The position numbers were made by a program, and so were the translations under genes. Positions 750 through 48,633 of a stretch of 64,000 nt of DNA are shown here, piece by piece. The notes under the pieces were generated by a model, which was not told the origin of the DNA, did not search any database, and was given only the letters and a program-made list of their open reading frames with translations. The DNA comes from Fibrobacter succinogenes (GTDB lineage: Bacteria; Fibrobacterota; Fibrobacteria; Fibrobacterales; Fibrobacteraceae), in NCBI RefSeq assembly GCF_902779965.1, contig NZ_CACZDK010000018.1, positions 1-64,000 on the forward strand, read 5' to 3'. Numbering within the stretch: position 1 is the stretch's first letter; every line of letters starts with the position of its first letter.

Positions 750-2444
750 TCATAATTTACCAAGTTCATCCCAAACTACTTGCATCAAGGGTTCCAGCGT
801 CTTAGGCGTGAAATCGAACTTGATGTTTGCCGTTGCGAAGAGTTCCGGAATCGGACGGCTGCTGCCCAGGCTTTCGGCCTTGAACAAGTCATCAATTGCC
901 TTTTGCGGATCCTTCTTGAAGTTGGCCCAAACCTGCAAAGCGCCAATCTGTGCGATGCCGTATTCAATATAGTAGAACGGACATTCGAACAAATGAAGCT
1001 GTTTCTGCCACAGGTTCCTGCGTACGGCTTCAAGACCGCTGTAATCGATGCCTGCGTCGTAGCGGTCCATGATTTCACTCCAGATATCGCTGCGGTCTTC
1101 GGCGGTATGCGTGGGGAAGTTGTACAGGCGATGCTGGAAACTGTCGATGCTTGCGACCCACGGGAACAGCCAAATCACGTCGGCGAGTTCGCCTTCGGTA
1201 CTGCGGACAATGGCTTCGTGGTCGTCACCGTAGAACGGCTTCAAGTTCGACATGCCAATGAGTTCCATGCTCATGCTTGCAACTTCGGCAAATTCAGCCG
1301 GCACATCGCGGTAGGCGAAAATCGGCTGGTTCGCAAGCGCAAACTGGTGGAAGGAATGTCCGGATTCATGCAACAGCGTGTAAATGTCGCGGTCCGTATT
1401 GGCAGAATTCATGAAGATGAAGGGGAGGCGGCTTTCGTCAAAACCGATCTGGTAACCGCCGGGAGCTTTCCCTAAACGGCTATCCGGGTCGATTAACTTT
1501 TTCGCCTGCATTTCACGGGCCCACTTGCCAGCCTGCGGATGAATGCTTTCGAAAATGCAATCGACTTTTTCGATGAGCTCGTCTCCGCTCTGGTACGGCT
1601 TCAGTGGCGGCCTGCTCAGCGGGTCCACATCCAAGTCCCACGGACGGAGCTTTGTAAGCCCCATCTTTTGGGCGCGACGCTTGTACATTTCCTTTTGCAA
1701 CGGGAGCACCAGCTTTTCGATGCTTTCGTGGAAATTTTCGCAGTCGGTCGGAGTGTAGTCAAAACGATGCTTTGCAAGGAAGATATAGTCGATAAAATCC
1801 TTGCAGTGAGCATTTTTCGCAATTTGTTTTCGGATACCGAACAACTTGTCGTAAGAATTATCAAGCGCTTCTTTGTCCTTGAGGCGGCGTTCCCACATGG
1901 CTCTCCAGGCGCGTTCACGGAGGTCGCGATCGGTCTTTTCCATGTAGGCAGCTAGCTGCTGCATGGTTTTCACGTCGCCATCGAACTCGACGCTCATGCC
2001 GCCTGTGATTTTCTGGTACGCTTGCACGGCTTTATTCTCTTCGGTTTCAAGAGGAATATTGTCCGGAGAGAACAGGTCCAGCGATACTTGAACGCCTTTG
2101 AGCCATTCGCCAAATTCTCCCTTGAGGGCATCTTTGGACGGATGGGCCATCAGCTTACGGTTCAGCTTGTCGTCGTATTCAATCATGAGCGGTTGAATAT
2201 TTTCGACAAACTGTTCGTATGCCTTAGACGCTTGCTCGTCTCGGGTGTCGCAAGTCATCGCGACATAGCGTCTGCAACTGACTTCGCCAAGCACCGATTC
2301 GAGTTCACTCCAATCCAATATCCATTGGCGGAGCTTGTCTGTGTTCACTGGAATATCGCGTTGTAAGAGAGAGCGATATAATCTTGATATTTCTTTTTCA
2401 TCGTCCGGATTTAAATTTTCCGGAACAAAGTTGCGTTTTGTCAT
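750..2444 (-). CDS. M3 family oligoendopeptidase (PepF/thimet type)
   Basis: Zinc metallopeptidase that should cleave short cytoplasmic peptides. The 564-residue product has the M3 zinc motif HESGH at residues 359-363 (His359 and His363 as ligands, Glu360 catalytic) and the third ligand Glu387 in AEFAEVAS. The N-terminal part is the helical, mostly charged region usual for the family. There is no signal peptide, so it is expected in the cytoplasm. The length fits the PepF-like subgroup (about 560-600). The gene starts 19 bases after the stop of the upstream LEA-like lipoprotein gene on the same strand, so the two are probably one operon. A long open frame on the opposite strand is a codon-bias shadow. 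Confidence 0.93.
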   Translation of the reverse strand: MTKRNFVPENLNPDDEKEISRLYRSLLQRDIPVNTDKLRQWILDWSELESVLGEVSCRRYVAMTCDTRDEQASKAYEQFVENIQPLMIEYDDKLNRKLMAHPSKDALKGEFGEWLKGVQVSLDLFSPDNIPLETEENKAVQAYQKITGGMSVEFDGDVKTMQQLAAYMEKTDRDLRERAWRAMWERRLKDKEALDNSYDKLFGIRKQIAKNAHCKDFIDYIFLAKHRFDYTPTDCENFHESIEKLVLPLQKEMYKRRAQKMGLTKLRPWDLDVDPLSRPPLKPYQSGDELIEKVDCIFESIHPQAGKWAREMQAKKLIDPDSRLGKAPGGYQIGFDESRLPFIFMNSANTDRDIYTLLHESGHSFHQFALANQPIFAYRDVPAEFAEVASMSMELIGMSNLKPFYGDDHEAIVRSTEGELADVIWLFPWVASIDSFQHRLYNFPTHTAEDRSDIWSEIMDRYDAGIDYSGLEAVRRNLWQKQLHLFECPFYYIEYGIAQIGALQVWANFKKDPQKAIDDLFKAESLGSSRPIPELFATANIKFDFTPKTLEPLMQVVWDELGKL

Positions 2445-2463
2445 ATCCGTTTTTTTTATTGTA

Positions 2464-3141
2464 TTACTTAGCTAATTTTCCGAGCCATTTGTTCACGAGG
2501 AGGTCGAACAATCTGTCGCGGACGAGGTTCTGGAGTTTTTCGACATCTTCAGGCTTTACGTCTCTCTTGATTTCGAGGCCCTGAGAAACGGATTCTCCAC
2601 CTTCGGTGAGGGATACATCGATAAAGCCTGCGATGGCGTAGTATTGGATTTCTTTAAACTTAAAGATTTTTGCATCCAACGGGAAGGCTGCGTTGAAGTG
2701 CAAGTCGTTGTCACCCGGAGCGAGTTTGATGGTGTCCTTGAGTGTGAGCGGAACCGTAACGAGCGTATCGAACTTGATTTCGATATTGAGCTTGTTGATC
2801 CACAAGGTATCCTTGCCGGTGTTGTTGGCGTTCAGGTAAACGTCAAAGTTGGCATTACCAAGGTTCTTGTTGATGATGTTCTGCGACAAGTCCTTGACCA
2901 GCATGACGGCTTTCGGGTTCGGCAAGAATCCGTTCATCCCGTTATTCACGAGCTCCATAACATCATCATAGACATCAACGTTGTCAAAGGTAAGGTCCTT
3001 GTATTCAAACTTGGTCTCGATGAGGATTTTTGCCGCCTGCACCTTCTTTATCAAAGAGCAGCCGGTGAAGGTGGTTGTCACAAGTGCGAGTGCACCTGCT
3101 ATAATGAGTGATAGTGTGAGGCGTGAGAATTTGGTTTTCAT
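2464..3141 (-). CDS. LEA type 2 (LEA14/WHy-like) lipoprotein
   Basis: A 225-residue predicted lipoprotein. The N-terminus has basic residues, a hydrophobic stretch and a lipobox-like FTGC with the modified cysteine at residue 28. The rest resembles the LEA14/WHy fold: an all-beta domain of about 100 residues with alternating polar strands (a segment NANNTGKDTLWINKLN, then LAPGDNDLHFNAAFPLD). Such domains occur in bacterial lipoproteins of unknown role and in desiccation-related plant proteins. The C-terminal 40 residues are helical. It is the likely first gene of an operon with the M3 peptidase, but this does not by itself define a function. Envelope location is inferred from the lipobox. Confidence 0.75.
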   Translation of the reverse strand: MKTKFSRLTLSLIIAGALALVTTTFTGCSLIKKVQAAKILIETKFEYKDLTFDNVDVYDDVMELVNNGMNGFLPNPKAVMLVKDLSQNIINKNLGNANFDVYLNANNTGKDTLWINKLNIEIKFDTLVTVPLTLKDTIKLAPGDNDLHFNAAFPLDAKIFKFKEIQYYAIAGFIDVSLTEGGESVSQGLEIKRDVKPEDVEKLQNLVRDRLFDLLVNKWLGKLAK

Positions 3142-3194
3142 ATTTATCTCCTTGTCTTTTCAATATTTATTATAAAAAAATATTTGCAACTTTG

Positions 3195-5768
3195 TCAGTT
3201 GGTTCTAAATTCTGTTAGTGTTTGAATAAGCCTTTGTATGTCGATTGGCTTTGCCAAGTGCCCGTTCATACCGGAATTTAGGGCGTTTTGCTTATCTTCT
3301 TCGAAGGCGTTTGCGGTCATGGCGATGATTGGAATGCTTGATTTTTGTGGGTCCGAGAGCTTGCGGATCTGTTTTGTGGCTTCGTAACCGTTCATGCGCG
3401 GCATTTGGACATCCATCAATACGAGTTCGTATTTTTTCGGGGGTGCATTACGGATCTTTTCGACGGCGATATCTCCGTCTTCGGCGGTATCGACGATAAT
3501 TCCAGTTTCTTCTAAAAGTTCCTGGGCTATTTCGCGGTTCATTTCGTTGTCTTCGACAAGCAGAATCCGCATTCCTTTGAGCGAAAGCGTCTTTGCGTTA
3601 TTCTTGTCCATCGCATCGGATGTCGTTTCTTTGCTCCATTTCATGGGGAGGGATACAGTAATTTTTGTGCCTTTTCCTTTTTCCGATTCGATGTCTATGG
3701 TGCCGTTCATCAAGTCGGTGAGCTTTTTTACGATGGTCATTCCAAGGCCAGTTCCTTGGATATTGCTTACAGTTGTTGATGTTTCGCGGGTAAATTCATC
3801 GAAGATATGTTTGAGGAATTCGGGCGACATACCGATGCCTGTATCTTCTACAACTAGGGTGTATAGTCCATAGCCTTCGCGATCGTAGGGGTGCTCGTTT
3901 ATTGTGCATTCGATGCTTCCGCCTTCAAGCGTGTATTTGATGGCGTTCCCGATGATGTTTGCGGTAATCTGGTTGATGCGGTCGCTGTCGATGGAAACGA
4001 ACCTGTGCTCGACGTTCGCGATTGTAGCCGTAAATTTAATGCCCTTTGATTCTGCATGAGTGCCATAAGTTGTCATGAGCGCGGTAATGACGTTCTCGAA
4101 GTCGCATGTCTGTTCTTGCAGAGTGATCTTTCCAGATTCGATGCGAGACATTTCAAGCACTTGGTTTACTAGCGATAGCAACTGCTTCCCGGCAATGTCG
4201 ATCTTGTCGAGATAATCCTTGACCATTTTAGGATTGTCGATGTGTTTTTTTGCCATGGCAGTAAAGCCTGTTACCGCGTTCATAGGCGTGCGAATGTCGT
4301 GTGACATGTTGAACAGAAACGTGGTTTTTGCTTTGCTTGCTTCACGTGCGGCAGAAAGGGCATACGAGAGTTTTTGGTTTGCTTCGATTTCCTTGGATTT
4401 TTCTGCAGTGATGTTTCTGAATAAAATAATTGCTTTATATACAATGTTCAATTTTACTTGAACGGGAATATAAACCATGGTGATGTATTCAATGTTTCCA
4501 TCTCGCCCAGGACTCTTGAATATAACGCTTGGAATTTTATCGAGAGCCTTGCGCTTCTTGATAACTTTAAAGAAATTCTTAAAATCATCGCCATTTTGCA
4601 AGTCGTCGTTCATCCTTATAAAACCTTTTTCGAGGTTTTTGAGGAAACCTTTTTTAGGAAACGGCATTGGCATGACAGAGAGGTCTTCGAATGTCCCGTT
4701 TTCGGCATCGACATAAATCATGGCTCTTGCGATGACGCTTTCTGCTTTGGCAATGTAGCCTGCGAGGCGGTTCTCGCGCGAATCAGCCCGTCGAATAAAG
4801 AACTGGATGAGTAGGAGGTAGGCGATGTATCCACCGAATATGCCGATGAGCAAATACTGCAACATGCGCCCGGCCATGATACCCATGGAATAAAGGTCTT
4901 TTGCGGCGTCAATCGGGAAGTTCGAATAAACGCACAACGGTATGGTTTGGAGTGGCGCTATGTAGCCGTGAATTTCGTCTGTATCGCCGTTGAACTTGTA
5001 GCTTGAAGGCGTGCGCGTTGTGTAGGCGCGTATGATTTTGTTTCTGTTTTTTTCATCGAATTGCGGAGTGTAAAGGAACCTTTTAAAATTGTAGCGGGAC
5101 TGACCATGAACTGTAGTTTGCGGAATTTTCATGGTTTCTAGCGAGATGAAACTATTGCCTTCGGTGTTGACGATACCTGCTGAGGCGCTTGCTCCGTAGA
5201 CCTTGTAATCGAGTAGTCTCTTGATTGTTTTTTCGTCAAACGAGGAGGAGAGGATGCCAACGACTTTTTCTTGAACGTACACGGGTGCATAGAAAACAAC
5301 ATACGCCATGCTTGTATTTGTGGGCATGACAACGAATATGCCGCTATTGCCATTCATCCCTTCGCTAAAATACCATTTGTCGCCGGAGTAGATGGTATCG
5401 CCCGATGTTGTCTGCGTTTTACCGTTGGCATCTGTGAACCGCATGTGGTCGAACTGTGCTATTTTTTCGAGTTCTGCAAGATAGACTTCGTTCAGCAGGT
5501 TTTGGGCAGCTTTGTCAGAACTGAGTTTTGCAAGCGCTTCGATGGACTTGACGGAGTTCGAAAAAATTTCGTCTAGCTTGTTTGCCATTGCCAGGGTGAT
5601 ATCTTTAATGTAGTCGCTATTGCGTGCTGTGACGGCTCTTTTATCTTCTTCCTGGAATGCTGAAAATGCTTCGATAACCAAATAAACCACAAGAATAAGG
5701 GGCGCAAACCTTATTATCGTGTACTTAAGGCGTTTGTTTTTCTTTTTTATTTTCTGGAAACTCTGCAC
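3195..5768 (-). CDS. membrane hybrid sensor histidine kinase/response regulator
   Basis: An 857-residue hybrid two-component kinase. Domain order: one membrane helix near residues 16-38, a large extracytoplasmic region (about 40-290) of dCache type, a second membrane helix around 297-325, a PAS-like linker, then HisKA with the phospho-acceptor His490 in FNMSHDIRTPMN. An HATPase_c domain follows (DTGIGMS and GTGLGMTIVKKL boxes), then a C-terminal receiver domain with Asp786 in LVLMDVQMP. All key phosphorelay residues are present. There is no DNA-binding output domain, so the signal must pass on to another protein. The nearest regulator, a PadR gene, is divergently transcribed and of a different family. 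The ligand is unknown; dCache domains usually bind small molecules. Confidence 0.92.
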   Translation of the reverse strand: MQSFQKIKKKNKRLKYTIIRFAPLILVVYLVIEAFSAFQEEDKRAVTARNSDYIKDITLAMANKLDEIFSNSVKSIEALAKLSSDKAAQNLLNEVYLAELEKIAQFDHMRFTDANGKTQTTSGDTIYSGDKWYFSEGMNGNSGIFVVMPTNTSMAYVVFYAPVYVQEKVVGILSSSFDEKTIKRLLDYKVYGASASAGIVNTEGNSFISLETMKIPQTTVHGQSRYNFKRFLYTPQFDEKNRNKIIRAYTTRTPSSYKFNGDTDEIHGYIAPLQTIPLCVYSNFPIDAAKDLYSMGIMAGRMLQYLLIGIFGGYIAYLLLIQFFIRRADSRENRLAGYIAKAESVIARAMIYVDAENGTFEDLSVMPMPFPKKGFLKNLEKGFIRMNDDLQNGDDFKNFFKVIKKRKALDKIPSVIFKSPGRDGNIEYITMVYIPVQVKLNIVYKAIILFRNITAEKSKEIEANQKLSYALSAAREASKAKTTFLFNMSHDIRTPMNAVTGFTAMAKKHIDNPKMVKDYLDKIDIAGKQLLSLVNQVLEMSRIESGKITLQEQTCDFENVITALMTTYGTHAESKGIKFTATIANVEHRFVSIDSDRINQITANIIGNAIKYTLEGGSIECTINEHPYDREGYGLYTLVVEDTGIGMSPEFLKHIFDEFTRETSTTVSNIQGTGLGMTIVKKLTDLMNGTIDIESEKGKGTKITVSLPMKWSKETTSDAMDKNNAKTLSLKGMRILLVEDNEMNREIAQELLEETGIIVDTAEDGDIAVEKIRNAPPKKYELVLMDVQMPRMNGYEATKQIRKLSDPQKSSIPIIAMTANAFEEDKQNALNSGMNGHLAKPIDIQRLIQTLTEFRTN

Positions 5769-36915: not shown

Positions 36916-38058
36916 ATGGGTGAAATAAGAAAATATCAACGATGCACCCAGTGCGTAATGGATACGACTGATTCCAAGATCGTATTCGATGAAAATGGCG
37001 TTTGCGATCATTGCCGGAATTTCGAGAAAAACATCAAGCCATTTTGGAAACCGCAAGAAAATCATTTTGACGAACTAGAAAAAATCGCCGCCCAAATTCG
37101 CAAAGCTGGCGAAGGTCATGACTATGATTGCATTTTGGGGCTTTCCGGTGGCGCAGACAGTTCTTACCTCGCATACGTCGCCAAAGAGATAATGCATTTA
37201 AGGCCTTTGGTGTTCGTTGTCGATACCGGCTGGAACTTAAATGTTGCAGTTGAAAATATCGAAAAGATTGTTAAGGGTCTGAACCTCGACATGTATACTG
37301 AGGTGGTCAATTGGAAAGAAATGGCTGACTTGCAACTTTCTTTCTTCAAGGCTTCTATTTCATCTTGTGATCATCCGCAGGACCATGCTATTTTTGCTGC
37401 CCTGTACAATTATGCCGTAAAGCACAAGATAAAATACGTTTTGACAGGTTCCAACAGTGCAACGGAATTCATTCGTCCACCTGTAGAATGGATTTATATG
37501 AATGATTCCGTTATGCTTAAGGATATCCATAAGCGATTTGGCAAAGTTCCCCTGAAAACATATCCATTATGTGGAATGTTGAAATATCGAATTCTTTATC
37601 GTTATTTCTACGGCATGAAGCGCGTGTTCCCGTTGGATTATGTCGTTTACGACAAAGAAAAGGCTATGGAGCTTTTGCACGAAAAATACGGATGGACTAA
37701 GTATGAGAACAAACATTACGAAAATGTGTTCACCCGTTTCTTTGAAGGGTACTATCTTCCGCATAAATTTGGCTTTGATACAAGAAAGAATGTTTGCTCC
37801 ACGCAAATTTTAACAGGGACAATGACCAGGGACGAGGCGTTGCGCGTTTTAGAAAAACCGCCTTACGACCCGGAACAGATGGAACTTGACAAAGAATATG
37901 TTGCAAAGAAAATGGGCATAACGGCAGCTGAATTCGACAAGATTATAGCTCAACCAAACAAGACTCCGGCTGACTACAAGAACCAAATGTGGATTATAAA
38001 GTTGGGTGTTTTTTTGTCTAAACTTTTGGGCTCTGAAAACAGGAATTTGAGGGTCTAA
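36916..38058 (+). CDS. N-acetyl sugar amidotransferase (WbpG/PseA family), copy 1
   Basis: A 380-residue PP-loop ATPase that should convert an acetamido group of a nucleotide sugar to an acetamidino group, using ammonia from the HisH/HisF pair next door. It has N-terminal cysteine pairs (CTQCVMD and CDHC), the ATP-binding PP-loop GLSGGADSS near residue 75, and the conserved DTGWNLNVAVENI block. It overlaps in role with a second copy at 39472; the two flank hisH and hisF. The best characterised relative is P. aeruginosa WbpG of O5 O-antigen. Confidence 0.92.
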   Translation: MGEIRKYQRCTQCVMDTTDSKIVFDENGVCDHCRNFEKNIKPFWKPQENHFDELEKIAAQIRKAGEGHDYDCILGLSGGADSSYLAYVAKEIMHLRPLVFVVDTGWNLNVAVENIEKIVKGLNLDMYTEVVNWKEMADLQLSFFKASISSCDHPQDHAIFAALYNYAVKHKIKYVLTGSNSATEFIRPPVEWIYMNDSVMLKDIHKRFGKVPLKTYPLCGMLKYRILYRYFYGMKRVFPLDYVVYDKEKAMELLHEKYGWTKYENKHYENVFTRFFEGYYLPHKFGFDTRKNVCSTQILTGTMTRDEALRVLEKPPYDPEQMELDKEYVAKKMGITAAEFDKIIAQPNKTPADYKNQMWIIKLGVFLSKLLGSENRNLRV

Positions 38059-38060
38059 GG

Positions 38061-38681
38061 ATGATTGCTATACTCAACTATGGTCTTGGAAACCTTGGCT
38101 CCATCGCCAACATGCTCAAGGTTATTGGTGAAAAATCAAAAATAACCAGCAGTAATGATGAAATCAATGCGGCTGATGGACTGATCCTTCCTGGAGTTGG
38201 AGCGTTCGATGCAGGAATGCAAAAACTCAATGAAACGGGGCTTGCCCAAGTTGTTAAAGATTTTGCGGCAACGGGCCGCCCAATTTTGGGCATTTGCCTT
38301 GGCATGCAACTATTAGGCAAAAAAAGCGAAGAAGGGACACTCCCTGGGCTTGGCCTAATTCCGTTTGAATGCGTACGGTTCAATTTCGCTAGTGACTCGG
38401 AACTTAAGATTCCGCACATGGGTTGGGATATCGTTGATTTCAAGCAACACCACTCGTTGCTCAACAATCTGCAGGGTACACAAAGATATTACTTTATCCA
38501 TTCTTTCCACGCCGTATGTGACCATGCCGAAAATGTATTGATGACATGCGATTATGGCTATGAATTTGCGGCGTCTGTCGTCAATGGTAATGTAATCGGG
38601 GTTCAGTTTCATCCAGAAAAAAGCCATGATTTTGGACTTGCTCTTTTTAGAAACTTTGTCGATATGTGCAGGAGGAATTAA
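38061..38681 (+). CDS. hisH: HisH-like glutamine amidotransferase subunit of sugar amidation system
   Basis: A 206-residue class I glutaminase that should release ammonia from glutamine. The triad is intact: Cys79 in GICLGMQLLG, His184 and Glu186 in VQFHPEKS. In this setting, between two WbpG-like amidotransferases, it is unlikely to serve histidine synthesis; no other his gene is nearby. It starts two bases after the upstream stop and is followed by the HisF-like gene with an SD inside its last codons. Confidence 0.92.
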   Translation: MIAILNYGLGNLGSIANMLKVIGEKSKITSSNDEINAADGLILPGVGAFDAGMQKLNETGLAQVVKDFAATGRPILGICLGMQLLGKKSEEGTLPGLGLIPFECVRFNFASDSELKIPHMGWDIVDFKQHHSLLNNLQGTQRYYFIHSFHAVCDHAENVLMTCDYGYEFAASVVNGNVIGVQFHPEKSHDFGLALFRNFVDMCRRN

Positions 38682-38683
38682 CT

Positions 38684-39454
38684 GTGTTTACAAGACCTAG
38701 AATTATCCCCACTTTGCTCATTGACGACAGAGACTTGATAAAGACTGTCCAGTTTGGGAAGCGAACATACCTTGGTGATCCGGTGAATGCCGTAAAGATA
38801 TTCAATCGCAAGGGAATTGATGAACTCTCAATTTTGGATATTGGAGCAACAAAGAATGGCCGGGAGCCCGACTACGAACTTCTGAAGGATATCGCTAGTG
38901 AAGCGTTTATGCCACTCAGCTACGGCGGTGGCATTCAGACTGTAGAACAAATCCGTAATTTGCTCGCGATTGGTTACGAAAAGGTTGTTATCAACACAGG
39001 ACTAATCCGTAATCCGGAACTTGTCCGACTGGCTGCAATTCAGTTTGGTTGCCAAAGCATAGTAGCATCTGTCGATGCCAAGAAAGTAGATGGTGCATAC
39101 AAGTGCTTTATTGCTGATGGATCTGAAAAAGTTGATATGGAACCAGTTGCCTTGGCGAAACGCGCCGAAGAACTTGGTGCTGGAGAAATCATCATCAACT
39201 CAATCGATAATGACGGAATGATGGCTGGTTATGATATAAACCTTGTGCAAAGCATCGCTAGTGCGGTCAAGGTCCCAGTAATTGCCATTGGTGGTGCTGG
39301 TGGAATAAGTGATTTGCAAAAGGTTCTGCACCAAGGACATGCCCATGCAGCAGCTGGCGGAAGTATGTTCGTCTATTATGGCAAATTAAAAGCTGTGCTG
39401 ATAACAGCACCTAGTGAAAAAGAATTGACAGATGCAGGCATCTATAAAAATTGA
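38684..39454 (+). CDS. hisF: HisF-like subunit lacking the cyclase Asp
   Basis: A 256-residue TIM barrel partner of the HisH-like protein. The GTG at 38684 is chosen because a perfect SD AGGAGG lies 8 bases upstream; an in-frame GTG at 38666 would put that SD inside the gene. The N-terminal strand reads RIIPTLLIDD; where true HisF has RIIACLDV with the catalytic Asp11, this protein has Leu. The later DGMMAGYDINL and GGAGGISD phosphate sites remain. Loss of Asp11 argues it only channels ammonia, as in O-antigen HisF paralogues, rather than making imidazole glycerol phosphate. Confidence 0.88.
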   Translation: MFTRPRIIPTLLIDDRDLIKTVQFGKRTYLGDPVNAVKIFNRKGIDELSILDIGATKNGREPDYELLKDIASEAFMPLSYGGGIQTVEQIRNLLAIGYEKVVINTGLIRNPELVRLAAIQFGCQSIVASVDAKKVDGAYKCFIADGSEKVDMEPVALAKRAEELGAGEIIINSIDNDGMMAGYDINLVQSIASAVKVPVIAIGGAGGISDLQKVLHQGHAHAAAGGSMFVYYGKLKAVLITAPSEKELTDAGIYKN

Positions 39455-39471
39455 AGGAGCCATGGTTGACG

Positions 39472-40641
39472 ATGAATTACCCCGTAATTAAATCAAAGTC
39501 TGAAAGACCTTATCAAATTTGCAAGTGCTGTGTTATGGACACCAGCGACGAGGACATTGTTTTCGATGAAAACGGCATCTGCATGCGTTGCAAGGAATAC
39601 AAGGAACGCATCGAACCAGAATGGAATCACGGCAAAGGTCATGAAAAACAACTTCAGAATTTAATCCAGGCAATCAAGGATAGTGGTAAGGGCAAGGAAT
39701 ACGACTGTATCCTTGGTCTTTCGGGTGGACTCGACAGCTCTTATATGCTGCACCTTGCCGTTAAAGAATGGGGACTGCGTCCGTTCGTATTCCACATCGA
39801 TGCTGGCTGGAACCTTCCCGTTGCCGAAGAGAATATCAAGCGACTTACTGACAAACTTGGCGTCAAGCTCCATGTCGATAAGATGGACTGGAACGAAATG
39901 CGCGAAATGCAACTCGCTTGGTTCCGTACGGGCCTCGAAATGCTCGATGCTCCGCAAGACCATGCATTTATTTCGCTGATTGACAAATATTCGCAGAAAC
40001 TTGGTGTCAAGTACATTCTGAACGGTTACAACATCTGTACCGAAATTGTTGCTGATCCGGCTTCCTGGGAAAAGGGGGCGGGTCCCACTGGTGATGGTAC
40101 TTACATCAGAGATGTCATCAAGAAATACTGCAAGATTCCTATAAAGAACTATACCTTCACAAGTGGGTTTAAGCACAAGTTTGTACTTCCGTATTTGAAG
40201 GGTGTAAAAACCATCAAGCCGCTGAACCTTGTGGAATTCACCAAGGAATCGATGATAAAGACCCTTTCTGACGAATACGGCTATGTGCCGTATGGCCAGA
40301 AACATTTTGAAGATCTGATTACCAAATTTTTGGAAGGATGGTGGCAACCGACCCGATTCGGCCACGATATCAGAAGGGCGCAGCTGAGCAGCCTTGTTGT
40401 TACGGGACAATTGGATAGACTCAAGGCTTTGGAAATTTTAGAACAGCCACCTTTGAGCGAAGCTGAAAGCAAGGAACTTTTCAAGGAAGTCGCAAGGCGA
40501 CTCGAAATTAGCGAAGATGAACTCACCAAGTTCCATGAAATGCCTGCATGTACCGAAAAATTTAAAAGCCAGGAAAGACTCTACAATTTTGGAATAAGGC
40601 TGTACGAATTACTTGGGCTGGAAAAGAGAATCAGGAAATAA
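39472..40641 (+). CDS. N-acetyl sugar amidotransferase (WbpG family), copy 2
   Basis: A 389-residue paralogue of the gene at 36916. It carries the PP-loop GLSGGLDSSYMLH, CKCCVMD and CMRCKEY cysteine pairs, and HIDAGWNLPVAEENIKRL. The ATG at 39472 follows AAGGAG by 12 bases; a TTG at 39466 is better spaced and may be the true start, adding two residues. The two amidotransferases differ throughout, so they may act on different sugars of the repeat unit. The next open frame begins 23 bases after this stop and shows signs of truncation at its 5' end. Confidence 0.9.
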   Translation: MNYPVIKSKSERPYQICKCCVMDTSDEDIVFDENGICMRCKEYKERIEPEWNHGKGHEKQLQNLIQAIKDSGKGKEYDCILGLSGGLDSSYMLHLAVKEWGLRPFVFHIDAGWNLPVAEENIKRLTDKLGVKLHVDKMDWNEMREMQLAWFRTGLEMLDAPQDHAFISLIDKYSQKLGVKYILNGYNICTEIVADPASWEKGAGPTGDGTYIRDVIKKYCKIPIKNYTFTSGFKHKFVLPYLKGVKTIKPLNLVEFTKESMIKTLSDEYGYVPYGQKHFEDLITKFLEGWWQPTRFGHDIRRAQLSSLVVTGQLDRLKALEILEQPPLSEAESKELFKEVARRLEISEDELTKFHEMPACTEKFKSQERLYNFGIRLYELLGLEKRIRK

Positions 40642-40664
40642 TCGAATTCGCAATTGAGCATAAG

Positions 40665-41843
40665 ATGGAAAACTATATAATTCTACCCAAAACAGCAGAC
40701 CAAACGCTATTGGCTAAATACTACTCGTTAGCCGATGTGTTTACCATTTGCTCTAAGCGCGAAAATTTCCCGACAACTTGCGTTGAGGCTCAATGTTGTG
40801 GAACGCCTGTGGTTGGTTTTGATACTGGTGGAACAAAAGAAACATCTATCGAATCTCAGGATGATTTTGTACGCTACGGCGATATTGACGCCCTTGCAGA
40901 AAAAACGATGTGTAAATTATGCGGTAATTCAAAAGATATTGCTGAAAAAGCCCAAAAGGAATATTCCAAGGAAACCATGTCCAAACGGTACATGGAAACA
41001 TACGACCGTGGAGGCCGAAAAAAAAGAGTCTTGCTGATTGATGTCAACTGCAAGGGGTCGTCTACAGGGAAGATTGTTTACGATTTGTACACAAACTTGC
41101 GAGCTGATGGACGATCCGCTGCGATTTGCTATGGTCGTGGAAAAAACATTGAAGAAGAAAACATATACAAATTTGGTCTGGATTGGGAAACGAATATTCA
41201 TGCGGGGCTTTCTCGTATTACGGGGTACAACGGATATTTCTCGTATTTTTCGACCCGAAGGCTAATAGACTATATCGAACAATTCAAGCCCGACTTAATT
41301 CACATTCATGAGCTTCATGCTTATTTTGTAAACATCAAACCGCTTATCGAATATATCAAGTCTAGAAATATTCCTGTAGTATGGACATTCCATTGTGAAT
41401 ACATGTATACAGGCAAATGTGGACATGCGTATGAATGTAGAAATTACCAAAATAAATGCGGCAACTGCCCCGCTGTAAAAGATTATCCCAAGAGCTTGTG
41501 GCTTGATAAGACCAGGCAAATGCTTGAAATGAAAAAGAATTTGCTCGGTGATTGGAACTTTACGATTATCACCCCGTCGCAGTGGTTAGCAGACAGGGTA
41601 AAGACATCTTTTTTGAAAGATAAAAAAATTAATGTCATTCACAATGGGATTGATACAAGAGTATTTCATCCTGTTGACGCAAATGAATTGAGAAAGGAAC
41701 TAAAAATTTCCGAAGATTGTAAGGTTGTTCTTGCAGTCGCCCCAAACATCATGTCGGAGAGTAAAGGCGGAAAGTGGATATTACAACTTGCTGAAAAAAT
41801 GAAAATCGAAAATGTCTTCTTTGTACTCGTGGGGAAACTGTAA
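40665..41843 (+). CDS. chimeric, permuted GT4 glycosyltransferase (C-half followed by N-half)
   Basis: A 392-residue frame in which the order of domains is reversed. Residues 1-113 are the C-terminal third of a GT4 enzyme (LAKYYSLADVFTICSKREN, then EAQCCGTPVVGFDTGGTKE). From residue 119 a fresh N-terminus begins (KKRVLLIDVNCKGSSTGKI) and runs through the acceptor domain up to FFVLVGKL, where the frame stops just at the linker. The sum of the parts, about 390, equals one full enzyme. Upstream of the ATG the same frame stays open and family-like (EFAIEHK), showing that the 5' end was lost. It most likely arose by deletion between two tandem GT genes. Activity is doubtful but a permuted enzyme cannot be ruled out. 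Confidence 0.75.
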   Translation: MENYIILPKTADQTLLAKYYSLADVFTICSKRENFPTTCVEAQCCGTPVVGFDTGGTKETSIESQDDFVRYGDIDALAEKTMCKLCGNSKDIAEKAQKEYSKETMSKRYMETYDRGGRKKRVLLIDVNCKGSSTGKIVYDLYTNLRADGRSAAICYGRGKNIEEENIYKFGLDWETNIHAGLSRITGYNGYFSYFSTRRLIDYIEQFKPDLIHIHELHAYFVNIKPLIEYIKSRNIPVVWTFHCEYMYTGKCGHAYECRNYQNKCGNCPAVKDYPKSLWLDKTRQMLEMKKNLLGDWNFTIITPSQWLADRVKTSFLKDKKINVIHNGIDTRVFHPVDANELRKELKISEDCKVVLAVAPNIMSESKGGKWILQLAEKMKIENVFFVLVGKL

Positions 41844-41844
41844 T

Positions 41845-42951
41845 ATGGATATTTTGTTTTTTTCCAACATTCCTTCTCCATATTCTATAGCTTATATAAA
41901 CGAGTTGGGAAAATTAGCAAATGTTATTGCTGTATACGAAAAACAATCTTTTAAACATCGAGATTCGAGCTGGAAGTCTTTTTCAGCTCCAAATGTGAAA
42001 AAAATAGTTATAATGAAGGGACTGCCTCTGGGCAGAATATATAAAATATCTTTTGAACCTATTTTTCAAATTTGGAAACATAGGAATTCAAGGATAATTA
42101 TCGCAAATCCTTTAACTCCTTGTGGAATTCTATCCATTTTTTTCTGCAAGTTGTTGCGAATCCCCTTTATCATTCAAAGCGAAGGTGGGCTTGCAAAAAA
42201 CGGCAAAGGTCTAAAGGAACATTTCAAGAAAATAGTGATGCGAGGAGCCTCCTTGTATCTAAGTGGAATGAATCCGAAACATGATTACTTTTTAGCATAT
42301 GGGGCAACTACAGAAAAAATAAAACAGTATCCGTTTTCTTCGTTATATAAAAAGGATTTTCCTAACAGATTATTAAATCAAAAAGAAAAATGCATTTTAC
42401 GAACCGAATTAGGAATAGAAGAAAAAAATGTTGTTCTTTTCGTTGGACAATTTATTTATAGAAAAGGTGTTGATGTTTTGTTGAATGCGTTGTCCATAAC
42501 TCATTCCGAAGTTGGTCTATATTTGATTGGCGGAAAAGAAACTCAAGAATATCGTGATATTATTGACCAATTTGGCTTGAAAAACATTCATTTTATGGAA
42601 TATATTGAATTAAACTCTTTGAAAAAATATTATAGGGCTGCAGATTTTTTCGTTTTGCCAACGAGAGAAGACACTTGGGGACTAGTAATAAATGAAGCCA
42701 TGACTTATGGTTTGCCTATTATTACGACAGATAAATGTGTTGCTGGTCTTGAATTAATCGATGATGGAATAAATGGTTTTTTGGTTCCTGCCGAAAATAC
42801 AAATGCTCTTGTAGAAAAAATCGATTTACTTCTTGACAATCCAAATTTATGTAACAAGATGGCTTTGAATAATTTTGAAAAAATAAAAGATTATAGCTAT
42901 GAAAATATGGCACATGTAATATACAATTATTTGAACAATTTTAATACATAG
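41845..42951 (+). CDS. GT4 family glycosyltransferase
   Basis: A 368-residue GT-B glycosyltransferase starting one base after the chimeric gene. The second domain has the usual signals: VVLFVGQFIYRKGVDVLLNA, FVLPTREDTWGLVINEAMTYGLPII (the donor-binding E-x7-E region). The acceptor domain begins MDILFFSNIPSPYSIAYINE. It is the first gene of a markedly AT-rich run that extends to about 48.6 kb. Donor and acceptor sugars cannot be told from sequence. Confidence 0.88.
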   Translation: MDILFFSNIPSPYSIAYINELGKLANVIAVYEKQSFKHRDSSWKSFSAPNVKKIVIMKGLPLGRIYKISFEPIFQIWKHRNSRIIIANPLTPCGILSIFFCKLLRIPFIIQSEGGLAKNGKGLKEHFKKIVMRGASLYLSGMNPKHDYFLAYGATTEKIKQYPFSSLYKKDFPNRLLNQKEKCILRTELGIEEKNVVLFVGQFIYRKGVDVLLNALSITHSEVGLYLIGGKETQEYRDIIDQFGLKNIHFMEYIELNSLKKYYRAADFFVLPTREDTWGLVINEAMTYGLPIITTDKCVAGLELIDDGINGFLVPAENTNALVEKIDLLLDNPNLCNKMALNNFEKIKDYSYENMAHVIYNYLNNFNT

Positions 42952-42994
42952 GGTGTTGACACATTGATTTTCATCTTTAAGAAGGTTTTCTATA

Positions 42995-44122
42995 ATGAAA
43001 TTTGTTATTTTTGCAGACAGATCGTATAATTACATAAAACCTCTTGCAAATGGATTGCAAAAAACTTTGATAGAAATGGGGCACTCTTCTGAAATTCTAT
43101 ATAATGGAATTTATTGGTTGAGTGATTTAAATCTTTTTAAAGTTGTTATAGCTGACATATATAGGATTTATTTAAATATAAAACATAAACAAAAAGATTT
43201 ATTCATTTATCGATTCTTTGGTTTGTTTTTTTTCTTAACAGCCAAAAGACGAAAGCTTTTAAAAGAATGTGATTGCATTATCATTGTGAATAATTGCCCA
43301 AGTGCATTTTTAAAAAACAAAAGGATTGATTGGCTAAGAGAGAAATTTAACAAGCCTATTGTCAATTACGATTTTCATTATTTACCGAATCAAGGTTGGT
43401 GGAAATACATGAATGAGGGTTATAGGGGCTTAGAACAGTATGATTGGTATCTTCCTGTAGGTTTGGTGACTGAATTTGCTATTCCGAAAGGAATTCCTAA
43501 AATTTATACCTGTATAGGCATGGATGTAAATAGCAAAGATTTATATCCTGAACAAGATGATTTTATCGTACTTCTTGATTTTCCTCGTCCAGGGCATGAA
43601 ATAAAACGTTCTGAAGAGAAAAAAACATTAGAAGAACTTGGTGTAAAATTCATCGAATTACACGGCCGTTATACAACAAAACAAATTCGAGCAATTTATA
43701 GAAAAGCTTCTGTATATTTAGTGAGCTGTAGAGAAAGCTTTGGTTTGCCAATTGTTGAATTACAGTTGTGTGGTGCAAAAATATTTACGCCTTATTTAGA
43801 ATGGGTCCCCGCTCATTATTTAAATAAATCTATAAATAAAAAATCGGCTGGATTATTAGGTGAAAATTTTGTCGTTTACGAAAACAAAGATGGGTTAAAG
43901 AAAGCTCTGCAAAAAGCCAAAATTGAATTTAACGCCTCAAAGAATGTAGAGAAGTTTAAAGAGGATTACCCTTTTTATAACCAAATTTCTAATAAAATGT
44001 TAGAAACATTTGTATTGAAATTAAAAGAAGGTGCAATAACGAGTCAATCTCATGAAGAGTACAAAAAATATAACGGTTTCATTTCTAAAGACGATGATTA
44101 TAAACAATCTGACCGAATATGA
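42995..44122 (+). CDS. glycosyltransferase (GT-B, divergent)
   Basis: A 375-residue cytoplasmic protein with weak but real GT1/GT4-like features in its C-half: RAIYRKASVYLVSCRESFGLPIVELQLCGAKIFTPY, which matches the donor-binding region of glycosyltransferases. The N-half (FVIFADRSYNYIKPLANGLQKTL) is an acceptor-type Rossmann domain. Very AT-rich with many Lys and Asn codons. It overlaps the Wzy gene by 4 bases. Specificity unknown. Confidence 0.75.
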   Translation: MKFVIFADRSYNYIKPLANGLQKTLIEMGHSSEILYNGIYWLSDLNLFKVVIADIYRIYLNIKHKQKDLFIYRFFGLFFFLTAKRRKLLKECDCIIIVNNCPSAFLKNKRIDWLREKFNKPIVNYDFHYLPNQGWWKYMNEGYRGLEQYDWYLPVGLVTEFAIPKGIPKIYTCIGMDVNSKDLYPEQDDFIVLLDFPRPGHEIKRSEEKKTLEELGVKFIELHGRYTTKQIRAIYRKASVYLVSCRESFGLPIVELQLCGAKIFTPYLEWVPAHYLNKSINKKSAGLLGENFVVYENKDGLKKALQKAKIEFNASKNVEKFKEDYPFYNQISNKMLETFVLKLKEGAITSQSHEEYKKYNGFISKDDDYKQSDRI

Positions 44123-45348
44123 TTTATATTAATTATATTGTCCCTTTTTTACTCTGTTTTCCGATGATAAGCCGTTGGATTTTTCCTTCTGCTATTGAAA
44201 CGTTATTTGTTATAGATTTTAAATTTTATAATCTATATTTACCAGATTTAACTTTACTTTTATATCTTTATTTTCAAAGAAGAATTTGCCTAGTTAGAAA
44301 GGGACTTTGGCAAATTACTTTTGAAAAAAAACTTAAACTTATTGCTTTTTTATTGATTGGCTATACTTTTATTATAGGCGTAGCCTATAATAATTCTGAG
44401 ATACTTTTACCTTTGACGAGTGATTTTTCGTGGCTTTGGGTGACAATCATATTTGTATTTTATCCGCTTTCAAAAGAGCAGATGGAAAATTCTAAATATA
44501 TTGTGATTCCAACATTAATTATTTTATGCGTTGAAACGATACTGTATTCTTTTGGAATTCTCAATTATACATCGTCAACAGGAAATGAAATTGAACATCA
44601 AGAGATTGCTAATATATTTAGAATTTCAACAACAATAGGATCTGCAACTGGGACGGCATTTATTTTGATGATTCTTGGCTTTATATGTACTTCGAAATAT
44701 AAAATATCAATAATGCTTAAAATATTTCTTTATATGGTTACTTCAATTTCTATGTTACTTACAATTAGCAGAGCTTCCATTTTTACATGGAGTATCTATT
44801 TGTTTACGGTTTGTTTGGTGTTCTATTTTTCAAAAGGAATAACAGTAAAAAAAATTTTCTTTATTTTCCTTATATTTGGTGCGTTTGTTGGTTCTTATCA
44901 TCTAGGATTCTTTAATCCTTTAATAGAAAGGAACGTTCAATTATCATATGATGCAAATGTTATGACTAATAGAGACCGTTTATTTGAAAAAGCTTTAAAT
45001 GTTGTTCAAGAATCTCACTATATGGGTGTTGGATTGGGACAGGTTTTCCCAAATAAAGATATTGCGAATTGCATTAACTCTGTTTATAAAACGGCGCCGC
45101 ATAATTGCTATTTGGTTATACTTGCCGAGTTGGGGCTTTGGGGACTTGCTCTTTTTTTGTTTATGATAATAATGATGACGTTACAATTAGATTTCTCAAA
45201 AGCAGCTACAATAGGTTGGATAGGAATTTTGCTTGTTAACTTTAATACTGAAGGAGTAATTCTTCATTCCGAATTTTGGAGTGTAGTAGTTCTTTTTTGG
45301 TTGAATTTGGAGAAAAAAAATGAAAATATTATACATATGCATGCATAA
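44119..45348 (+). CDS. wzy: O-antigen/capsule polymerase Wzy
   Basis: A 409-residue integral membrane protein with about ten to eleven hydrophobic helices and a large periplasmic loop near residues 270-335. Wzy-type features include the motif-like RASIFTWSIYLFTVCL helix and the loop NVVQESHYMGVGLGQVFPNKD, similar to the HNxxL-type loop of O-antigen ligase/polymerase (PF04932) with PHNCYLVILAELG later. It should join repeat units at the outer face of the inner membrane. Sequence similarity in this family is always low; the topology and place in the locus carry the call. Confidence 0.82.
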   Translation: MIYINYIVPFLLCFPMISRWIFPSAIETLFVIDFKFYNLYLPDLTLLLYLYFQRRICLVRKGLWQITFEKKLKLIAFLLIGYTFIIGVAYNNSEILLPLTSDFSWLWVTIIFVFYPLSKEQMENSKYIVIPTLIILCVETILYSFGILNYTSSTGNEIEHQEIANIFRISTTIGSATGTAFILMILGFICTSKYKISIMLKIFLYMVTSISMLLTISRASIFTWSIYLFTVCLVFYFSKGITVKKIFFIFLIFGAFVGSYHLGFFNPLIERNVQLSYDANVMTNRDRLFEKALNVVQESHYMGVGLGQVFPNKDIANCINSVYKTAPHNCYLVILAELGLWGLALFLFMIIMMTLQLDFSKAATIGWIGILLVNFNTEGVILHSEFWSVVVLFWLNLEKKNENIIHMHA

Positions 45349-46477
45349 TCCTTTTGGGCGAGGAGACGGAGGGGACCTAGCATCTCACGCTTATTTTAAT
45401 GCGTTCTGCAAACTTGCTAATGGTGCTATTGATTTAATATGTTCTAATGAAATTGAATTAAAAAACAATAGTGAAGATAATTTTACTAAGGGAAAAATTT
45501 TTTTTGCCCCTGAACGTCCTTTTTTTTATAAACTGCTAAGTGTTGTAACAGGTCGTTTAAATCGATACACAAGATTTGCAAAAAGAATCATTAAAAAAGG
45601 ACACTATGAATATGTTGTATTTGACCACAGCTCTATTGCAGGTCAGTTGGTTGATTATGCGAAAAAAAATGGCGTTAAAACGATAACTATACACCATAAT
45701 TATGAATACGAGTATTATAAAGATAATTCAAAATGGTTAAATCGATTGCTTTTTTTGCATCATGTGGTGAGGAACGAAAAAAAAGCGTATCAAAAATCTG
45801 ATTTGAATCTTTTTTTGACTAAACAAGATCTTGTAACTTTCGAAAATGTTTACAAACATTCTCTTAACAAAAATGCGGTTCTAGGAACATTTGAATATAT
45901 GTCCAATACTCATTTGCCCCAAATTAGACAAAATGAAAATGGTGATTGTATAACATTCTCGATTACAGGAACTCTTTGTAGTTTTCAAACAAATGATGGA
46001 ATTAAGTATTTCTTTAGCAAGTTATTTTCTTGCATGCCATCTAAATGCAAAGTTATCATCTCGGGGAAAAATCCAACAGAAGATATTATTCTGCTTTGTC
46101 GTGAACATGCTAATGTAAAATTAATAAAGAACCCTGAAAATATGGATGACGTAATTCAACAGTCTGATGTGTATCTTTGTCCAACAAGAATTGGAGGCGG
46201 TTTAAAATTAAGGGTAATGGACGGCTTACGAAACGGAATCCCTGTGCTCTGTCATGAAAAGGCGGCAAGAGGTTATGACTTTTTTTACGATACACCTTTC
46301 TTTAAAATTTTTCACAATGAAATGGAATTTAAAGAATATTTGATAGAACTAATAGAGAATGTTCAAGAAAAAAATTTTTCAAGAATTTTTATTCAAGAAA
46401 AATATGAAGAATACTTCTCTTTTAATTCTGGCTTTCAAAGATTGAAATCTATTTTTGAAACAACATTTATTATTTAG
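45320..46477 (+). CDS. GT4-like glycosyltransferase
   Basis: A 385-residue glycosyltransferase. N-terminus MKILYICMHNPFGRGDGGDLAS is the acceptor domain with a Gly-rich loop; residues 285-340 contain IQQSDVYLCPTRIGGGLKLRVMDGLRNGIPVL, the donor-binding element of the Glyco_trans_1_4 type. The start lies inside the wzy gene (29-base overlap), implying coupled translation. AT-rich like its neighbours. Sugar unknown. Confidence 0.85.
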   Translation: MKILYICMHNPFGRGDGGDLASHAYFNAFCKLANGAIDLICSNEIELKNNSEDNFTKGKIFFAPERPFFYKLLSVVTGRLNRYTRFAKRIIKKGHYEYVVFDHSSIAGQLVDYAKKNGVKTITIHHNYEYEYYKDNSKWLNRLLFLHHVVRNEKKAYQKSDLNLFLTKQDLVTFENVYKHSLNKNAVLGTFEYMSNTHLPQIRQNENGDCITFSITGTLCSFQTNDGIKYFFSKLFSCMPSKCKVIISGKNPTEDIILLCREHANVKLIKNPENMDDVIQQSDVYLCPTRIGGGLKLRVMDGLRNGIPVLCHEKAARGYDFFYDTPFFKIFHNEMEFKEYLIELIENVQEKNFSRIFIQEKYEEYFSFNSGFQRLKSIFETTFII

Positions 46478-46492
46478 CCTCATGAGAGTTGT

Positions 46493-47611
46493 ATGAAAAA
46501 AATCGGAATTGTTACTTTCTGGAATTCACAAGATAATTATGGGCAGTTGTTGCAGTGTTTTGCATTGTCTTCATTTCTGAAAAAAATGGAATACGAACCG
46601 CAACTGATAAAGATGCGAACTGTTGTGAAAACGACTGTTTTTCATAAAATTGTAACATTTTTAACTTTATTAAAAACTCCTAGCAAGCTATTTTATGTTC
46701 TTTTGGAGAAAAAACTTGTAAAAAAAAGTCGAGCTATGAATGATGCTCATCCAAGATTTTTCGATGATTTTCGTAGAAAACATATTCCATCAACTGATGT
46801 TATTTATATAGAAGATTTCTTTTCTAATCCATTATACTTTGACGCTTATATAACAGGAAGTGATCAAGTTTGGAATTCTTTGTCGCCACTTTATTTTTTA
46901 CAATTCGCTCCAAATGGCGCAAAAAAAATAGCTTATGCAGCATCAATGGGTGGATATAAACCAAACGAAAATGAACGAATCGCTTTGAAAAACTATGTTA
47001 AAGATTTTGATTATGTTTCTTTGCGAGAAAAACAAGCTTTAGAATTCTTTAAAAAATATGATGTTTGTCAAGCAGAATGTGTACCTGATCCGACGCTCTT
47101 GCTTACAAAGAATGATTACAAAAAACTTTATGAAGATAAAATTTTATTTTCAAGAAAACCCTACATATTGCTCTATCTTTTAGGAAATAAATTACAATTT
47201 GATGTCGCTAAGATTTATGAATATGCAAAAGAGAAAAGACTTGATGTGATTTATGTAGCAAGTCAAGGACGAACAGATAAATATTCTAAGGAATATCCTT
47301 CGATTGAAGGATGGCTTGAATTGGTGGAAAATGCAGAAATGGTTGTGACAAATTCATTCCATGGAACTGTATTTTCGATGATATATCGGAAAAGGTTTAC
47401 AACACTACTTTTGACGGGACCTTTTGCAAAAATGAATGACCGAATTACGGATATGTTAAAAAAGTACGGCCTAGAGAAACAAATTTTTTCAGGAAGTCTA
47501 GATGAATACGATAAAGATGTTGACTACAATCTCTTTGAGAGCATTCTTTTTAAAGAACAAATGTATGTTCAACAAAAACTTCGGAATGTAATTGGAGAAA
47601 ATGTAGAATAA
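46493..47611 (+). CDS. polysaccharide pyruvyl transferase family protein
   Basis: A 372-residue member of PF04230, which transfers pyruvate from phosphoenolpyruvate to a sugar as a ketal. The family N-terminus IGIVTFWNSQDNYGQLLQCFAL, the YITGSDQVWNSL motif, and the C-terminal MVVTNSFHGTVFSMIYRK segment are clear. This gives a charged group on the repeat unit. Such genes are often found with the F420-dehydrogenase-beta-like protein, which occurs here at 50128. Confidence 0.9.
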   Translation: MKKIGIVTFWNSQDNYGQLLQCFALSSFLKKMEYEPQLIKMRTVVKTTVFHKIVTFLTLLKTPSKLFYVLLEKKLVKKSRAMNDAHPRFFDDFRRKHIPSTDVIYIEDFFSNPLYFDAYITGSDQVWNSLSPLYFLQFAPNGAKKIAYAASMGGYKPNENERIALKNYVKDFDYVSLREKQALEFFKKYDVCQAECVPDPTLLLTKNDYKKLYEDKILFSRKPYILLYLLGNKLQFDVAKIYEYAKEKRLDVIYVASQGRTDKYSKEYPSIEGWLELVENAEMVVTNSFHGTVFSMIYRKRFTTLLLTGPFAKMNDRITDMLKKYGLEKQIFSGSLDEYDKDVDYNLFESILFKEQMYVQQKLRNVIGENVE

Positions 47612-48633
47612 ATGGAAAATTCGTCAAATATTGTAAAATATGAATATGGCCAAATAGCTGAAAAAATTTATGTGTTAAACATTCTTAAATGTTTTGGCTG
47701 TATTGGGGTTGTGTTTATCCACGTTAATTTTCCTGGATTGTTTGGCTCTGTTGTTGAAAGACTGTCTAGATTTGCTGTTCCAGTTTTCTTTATGATTTCA
47801 GGCTTTTTCGCTTTTGACAAGAATGAATTGATCATAAAAAGAAGATTAAAGAAAATTCTGAAAATTCTTTTTGTTGGAAGCGTTTTGTATTTTATTCAAA
47901 ATGTATTTTCTTATGCTTTTCGAGGTGTTCTTAATGAATTCTTCATACATTTTTTCCAATTAAAGATTTTGTTTATGGCTTTTGTTTTTTGCAACTGGCT
48001 GGCTTCAGTTCTTTGGTATTTAATCGCCATGGCAGAAACATATGCATTGTGGTATTTTGTTGTTAAACATAATAAAGAAAATAAATTTTTATCGGCAATT
48101 CCGTTTTTATTCTCTTTAATGATAATTCTTAATTTAATTTGTGATTCTTTGAATATTTCATGGGTGTTTCATACAAATTTTATGACAGAAGCGATGCCGT
48201 ATTTTTTGTTAGGTTATTTAATTCATAAACATAAATTCATTTTGGTTAAATACCATATGTATTATTATTTCTTATTGTTTTTTTTTTGGGGGGGGCTGCC
48301 GTTTTGTCAAAAATTATTAAAGCATCTATTGATTTCTCGTGTGTTGGAATAATTGCTTATTCTATAGCCGTTTTTATGATTGCACTTAAAATGCCTAATA
48401 GATCTTATTGCAAAATGCTCGAATATGTTGGAGAAAAACTGTCGTTGAATATCTATATAATACATATGTTAGTTTATTCTGTTTTTAACATTGTTTGTCT
48501 TCACTTTTTCAAGGTTGACTATAAAATAGGTTTGTTGAGTTGGTTATATCCATTGTTAATTGTATTAAATTTAATTTTTCTGTCTTTTTTACTAAAAAAA
48601 TATTTTGAGAATACATGTCTCAGCTTAAATTAG
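47612..48633 (+). pseudogene. acyltransferase 3 family protein, split by a frameshift at a T10G8 tract
   Basis: An integral-membrane O-acyltransferase (acyltransferase 3) that would acetylate a sugar. The first 222 or so codons (from ATG 47612) encode the family start (LNILKCFGCIGVVFIHVN, AVPVFFMISGFF) and about six helices. At 48278-48295 the run of ten T and eight G shifts the frame, and the product ends at 48352 with 30 wrong residues. The remaining helices are encoded in the next frame up to 48633. One extra base in the tract (or two fewer) restores a full-length protein of about 340 residues. It may be a phase-variable ON/OFF gene, a fixed pseudogene or a sequencing slip. Confidence 0.82.
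48278..48295 (+). repeat. homopolymeric T10-G8 tract in coding sequence
   Basis: Ten consecutive T directly followed by eight consecutive G at the point where the acyltransferase frame breaks. G runs of this length are rare in AT-rich sequence and are typical slippage sites of phase-variable surface-glycan genes. Confidence 0.85.

Follow-up and report, generated by a model that had tools for sequence, protein, structure and literature searches.

A very likely functional, naturally circularly permuted GT4 glycosyltransferase in Fibrobacter succinogenes

The stretch of Fibrobacter succinogenes DNA analysed here (64,000 nucleotides, called the window below) carries a gene for a 392-residue protein in which the C-terminal part of a GT4 glycosyltransferase stands ahead of the N-terminal part. 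Very likely the product is a functional, natural circular permutant of a GT4 enzyme (GT-B fold), and it would have arisen by duplication, loss of the outer parts, fusion and horizontal transfer. We also lean, less firmly, toward a more specific reading, in which the active enzyme is permuted inside its donor-binding Rossmann domain and its living relatives, which keep in a single operon slot the canonical form, the C-N-C′ form, the split genes and the fused gene, form a near-complete natural record of permutation by duplication and of transfer between phyla.

Domain order of the permuted gene

In GT4 enzymes Glyco_transf_4 usually forms the first half and Glycos_transf_1 the second. The 392-residue protein (Table 1) has them in the opposite order: Pfam places profile positions 79–151 of Glycos_transf_1 at residues 9–80 and positions 6–169 of Glyco_transf_4 at residues 136–332 (bit scores of 64.3 and 49.5 for the two modules, both above the gathering thresholds), and NCBIfam models (BshA, WcaC and others) give the same swapped order. 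Together with the mapping of the two parts on relatives (see below), this bears out the central claim of an earlier, sequence-only reading of this DNA, that the C-terminal part is joined in frame before the N-terminal part; both halves come from one GT4 subfamily and not from the incompatible subfamilies that reading had named as an objection. As the usual N-to-C module order is not found in it, the protein is not a canonical family member, and from its sequence we class it as a permuted homologue that would work like a GT4 enzyme.

The same reading had listed the start as position 40641, where the wbuX stop codon ends; the ORF begins at the ATG at 40665, upstream of which there is no in-frame ATG, GTG or TTG. 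It had also taken the codons before the ATG (EFAIEHK) for family-like sequence, and they do resemble the helix that lies ahead of the C-part in split relatives, e.g. LKELILERGRNY. They lie outside the gene, however, since the other permuted genes begin at the same place and have upstream DNA unrelated to this stretch.

Table 1. Positions of the permuted gene, its parts, its neighbours and its relatives (window positions unless a locus is named)
Feature	Position	Strand	Basis or remark
Circularly permuted GT4 glycosyltransferase gene, 392 aa, C-part then N-part	40665..41843	+	ORF, Pfam, NCBIfam, orthologues
C-part, aa 1–118: β3 onward of donor-binding Rossmann domain and C-terminal helices	40665..41018	+	Pfam, tblastn/blastp, DSSP
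N-part, aa 119–392: acceptor-side Rossmann domain and β1-α1-β2 of donor-binding domain	41019..41840	+	Pfam, DSSP, dN/dS
EX7E motif of GT4 enzymes, E33...E41, ENFPTTCVE	40761..40787	+	alignment of permuted proteins
Fusion linker region, about TYDRGGRK, old C-terminus to old N-terminus	41001..41024	+	motif common to five permuted proteins
In-frame codons EFAIEHK before ATG, outside gene	40644..40664	+	resemble helix preceding C-part of split relatives
Amidotransferase (WbuX-like) copy 1, conserved neighbour	36916..38058	+	BLAST against relatives' loci; weak Pfam NAD_synthase/PP-loop
HisH-like glutamine amidotransferase	38061..38681	+	Pfam GATase; conserved upstream of permuted and unpermuted glycosyltransferases
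HisF-like subunit, conserved neighbour	38666..39454	+	Pfam His_biosynth
WbuX-type N-acetyl sugar amidotransferase, copy 2, directly upstream	39451..40641	+	NCBIfam TIGR03573 (251.7 bits; cut-off 203.2)
Next glycosyltransferase gene, unpermuted GT4	41846..42951	+	start is the ATG fitting relatives
Divergent donor-side core	aa 29–98 (window) and aa 30–99 (L032)		
Permutant L032, F. succinogenes MAG RUG12439, 393 aa	3995–5176		
Permutant L033, Parablautia sp. Marseille-Q6255, 397 aa	3986–5179		
Permutant L034, Lachnospiraceae MAG, 401 aa	3995–5200		
Permutant L109, Parablautia genus (G961), 403 aa	4670–5881		later genus search
L035 N ORF with decaying C-part remnant	4411–5253 with 5244–5423		

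Permuted and split relatives and the proposed route to the fused gene

A scan of 84,980 species genomes gave 22 loci coding for relatives, and mapping the N-part and the C-part separately at each locus divided them into three classes. Canonical N-C genes are found at 16 of the 22, permuted C-N single ORFs with no internal stop at three (L032, L033 and L034), and two adjoining ORFs in the order C then N at the other three (L035, L038 and L053). A later genus search added the permutant L109, besides which a six-frame protein search of ~1,290 genomes found no further one, so the permuted form is rare. The five permutants in all come from two phyla and are intact, with the same order and the same ends, and the frameshifts that the earlier reading had thought possible in other isolates are absent from all four of the other genes. 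Their linker follows the pattern YD(R/K)xGRK in every case, which argues for a single fusion event that gave rise to all five.

Viral contigs held no more copies of the gene. The best plasmid matches are ~33% identical; the match in a Segatella plasmid falls in one annotated glycosyltransferase gene of ordinary length, and that in a Subdoligranulum plasmid lies in a region without annotation. The match at L072 (genome G416; 16–390 with one TAG) looks like neighbouring unpermuted genes. L110 (genome G334) was rejected as a split gene, having canonical order and only 37% identity; it is a distant canonical-order GT4 relative broken into two ORFs (1520–2227 and 2249–3178, minus strand), the second of which carries two C-part-like segments.

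The split loci differ in detail. The C and N ORFs of L038 overlap by 4 bases, and in L035 a truncated, decaying second C-part follows the N ORF to give the arrangement C-N-C′; this remnant is 65–72% identical to the permuted C-parts compared with 58% to the intact C ORF upstream of it. The N-part tree groups the five permutants in a single clade (100/97) and the three split forms in a second (100/98); a sister relation of these clades is moderately supported (85/89). Resolution is poor in the C-part tree, where a grouping of permuted with split C-parts is not rejected (p-AU 0.475). From the sister relation we infer that the split forms represent ancestral states rather than a side branch. The permutation-by-duplication model predicts partial-duplication intermediates (PMC3320104), and L035 reads as just such a state; L038 and L053 would be two-gene C+N states, and the permutants the fused end state.

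By this route a GT4 gene would first be duplicated in tandem; loss of the outer parts would leave the C and N pieces as two adjoining genes (C-N-C′ at one locus); the two inner parts would fuse in frame into the permuted C-N gene; and horizontal transfer would carry it between Clostridia and Fibrobacter. The sequence-only reading had proposed loss of the outer halves from two tandem glycosyltransferase genes, which is in essence the duplication model and agrees with the split genes and with L035, but the events would belong to an ancestor and not to this window. The permutation is old and common to two phyla, and it probably arose in an ancestral Clostridia-type bacterium; a fresh local accident at the AT-rich border is not supported. 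The split forms and the majority of relatives belong to Clostridia, and Fibrobacter holds just two of the five permutants; a move of the gene from Clostridia into Fibrobacter would therefore be the simpler direction of transfer.

The same end product could also have been reached without tandem duplication, if the gene had been split by fission and its pieces fused in the opposite order, and the three relatives with separate genes in reversed order are compatible with this. Fission alone also requires a reversal of gene order, however, and the second, decaying C-part after the N-part of L035 is what duplication predicts; we therefore consider a fission-first origin unlikely, though well short of negligible, and prefer tandem duplication.

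Cut point and predicted fold

Mapped separately onto unpermuted relatives, the N-part matches up to about residue 270–273 and the C-part from about 279–282 (these numbers are shifted in a few longer canonical proteins). The parts are complementary, and a loop of 8–10 residues is the only piece absent from the permutants. In the model of the canonical protein L037 this loop sits between strands 264–269 and 282–285, that is, between β2 and β3 of the donor-binding domain. In the permutant model DSSP assigns the first strand to residues 4–7 and, at the end of the N-part, a strand at 353–361, a helix at 369–378 and the last strand at 384–391, which are β1-α1-β2 of the second Rossmann domain. The N-part had earlier been read as stopping at the domain linker; in the model it runs on through these elements, so the new termini are predicted to sit in the β2-β3 loop of the donor-binding domain and the two chain ends to build that domain together. 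The chain would run from β3 of the donor domain through EX7E and the C-terminal helices, cross the linker into the acceptor domain and finish with β1-α1-β2.

For the window protein AlphaFold2 gave a confident two-domain model (pLDDT 88.2, pTM 0.86) from an input of 29 relatives or relative halves, of which only four were full permuted rows and the others half-length; the values for canonical L037 are 83.8 and 0.81. The predicted model has two facing Rossmann domains, with strands and helices in the order expected of a permuted fold, as suits the earlier suggestion of a natural circular permutant that folds, and the permutant and canonical models, viewed separately, each look GT-B. The top Foldseek matches of both are the solved GT4-type enzymes BshA and GlgM (5d00, 3mbo and 6tvp), and against solved structures the permutant reaches TM ≤0.44 compared with 0.71–0.73 for L037. 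BshA and GlgM are unpermuted, and the permutant aligns to them in sequence order over residues 117–392 only. VIA comparison of the permutant gave Z 12.3 with 8vrf (rmsd 4.8, 243 residues, over 117–392 only) and Z 11.2 with 6tvp (rmsd 4.1, 227 residues), and a canonical relative against a solved GT4-type enzyme gave Z 29.7 (rmsd 3.4, 348 residues, 1–396). Any circular permutant must give such a partial match, here from about residue 117 onward, when structures are compared in chain order; no full-length match to the permutant was found among the 1000 PDB chains aligned, an absence that says little because the methods are bound to chain order.

In a different arrangement the C-part of one molecule would complement the N-part of its partner within a dimer, or the protein would lend parts to other glycosyltransferases. 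Split relatives suggest that C-part and N-part are able to exist as proteins of their own, and separately expressed GT-B domains are able to assemble (PMC10937113), but the confident monomer model (pTM 0.86) and the short, conserved linker make such domain exchange improbable.

Selection, gene neighbourhood and known parallels

Between the window gene and L032, the two Fibrobacter genes, dN/dS of the N-part is 0.048 (274 codons), and pN is far below pS in every permuted pair, with pS saturated outside the Fibrobacter pair. Twenty-one canonical marker residues are kept in all five permuted proteins except for one Gly→Ala in L032. They include the KGG lysine and both EX7E glutamates, which are present in all five; in the unpermuted relatives the second of these glutamates is invariant in 22 rows and the first in 14. 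One could still suppose that deletions brought two glycosyltransferase fragments side by side and left a functionless relic that is open by chance, the more so as the gene sits at a composition border beside a variable polysaccharide segment and the in-frame codons outside it resemble the helix before the split C-part. The five orthologues, intact in both phyla and alike in linker and ends, the low N-part dN/dS and the retained marker residues make this highly improbable, and we reject it on the grounds of conservation. With the same reshuffled gene intact in four other genomes of two phyla, the permuted gene is, by these comparisons, a conserved protein under selection and not a wreck. Redundancy with a second intact copy is likewise rejected, as no second close copy is present in the window genome (G000) or in G060–G062. 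Equal scores of the same-genus hits and of the genus search suggest that the window genome belongs to the genus of the F. succinogenes MAG. That assembly or annotation falsely joined pieces of two genes, as the draft state of the genome (76 contigs) and the MAG origin of two of the relatives might suggest, has next to no probability: the same junction recurs in independent assemblies, including Parablautia sp. Marseille-Q6255, at 65–82% protein identity, so that copying of one error does not explain it.

The C-part is a mosaic when the window protein is compared with L032, with ~90% identity at residues 2–28 and 99–118 and only 39% at 29–98. This suggests that the donor-binding core was exchanged with another GT4 gene in one Fibrobacter lineage, a possible swap of donor specificity.

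WbuX and/or HisH/HisF-type genes stand immediately ahead of the permuted and split genes and of most unpermuted ones, and by this shared position the permutant fills the slot of the unpermuted orthologue. The unpermuted GT4 orthologues of Dorea, Butyrivibrio and Pseudobutyrivibrio (~395–410 aa) belong to the same family and share its marker residues and the WbuX/HisH/HisF slot, but have N-C order and an intact β2-β3 loop, whereas the permutant has C-N order and the loop opened.

The permuted gene's neighbours in the window are the WbuX/HisH/HisF-type genes, glycosyltransferases, a Wzy_C protein, a polysaccharide pyruvyl transferase and a flippase-like Polysacc_synt protein. Homology and this neighbourhood point to GT4-type transfer in a surface-polysaccharide pathway, and the permutant should act as an ordinary retaining GT4 enzyme, in which the domain with EX7E and KGG would bind the nucleotide-sugar and the other domain the acceptor. 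To judge by the operon slot, it probably adds a (perhaps amidino-modified) sugar; the donor is presumably an amidino sugar from the neighbouring WbuX/HisH/HisF-type genes, a guess from known enzyme roles.

The window has two diverged WbuX-type genes flanking the HisH/HisF-type genes; L032 is without the second copy, and its permuted gene directly follows HisF. A gene similar to the next glycosyltransferase gene also follows the permuted gene in L032 and L033. Positions 42000–48000 are AT-rich (GC about 0.30, compared with about 0.45 upstream) and contain glycosyltransferases, the Wzy_C protein and the pyruvyl transferase; this is likely an exchanged polysaccharide segment beginning just past the permuted gene. 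The 375-residue ORF at 42995–44122 in the polysaccharide cluster has no Pfam or NCBIfam match at E ≤ 0.001.

The nearest parallel that we found is Alg13-Alg14, usually two proteins in eukaryotes, which match the C- and N-terminal parts of MurG and which Entamoeba and Dictyostelium have joined again in the opposite order (PMC8993221). There, too, a GT-B enzyme fell into two genes that later fused in reverse, but it belongs to another GT-B family and is cut between the domains, whereas the permutant is a bacterial GT4 enzyme predicted to be cut inside the donor-binding Rossmann domain. DNA methyltransferases and saposin/swaposin (PMC3320104) resemble our case in permutation by duplication with predicted partial duplications, though in other folds; in the GT4 case relatives show both split and C-N-C′ states. 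GH70 glucansucrases, whose chain is permuted with respect to that of GH13 (PMC11046441), are likewise circularly permuted carbohydrate-active enzymes that keep their catalytic motifs, but are a TIM-barrel glycoside hydrolase family and not nucleotide-sugar GT-B enzymes. In the literature searched, which takes in few subscription papers, we found no earlier report of a circularly permuted GT4 enzyme.

Annotation from domain content alone would take the gene for an ordinary glycosyltransferase. Circular permutations in evolution are deduced, for the most part, from their end states; in this family, related loci with similar gene neighbours retain four states (canonical, C-N-C′, two genes and fused), so that the steps of the permutation could be tested at the bench. 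If our reading is true, a GT-B donor domain can be opened in its β2-β3 loop and rebuilt from both chain ends, and this loop would offer enzyme engineers a cut site with a natural precedent.
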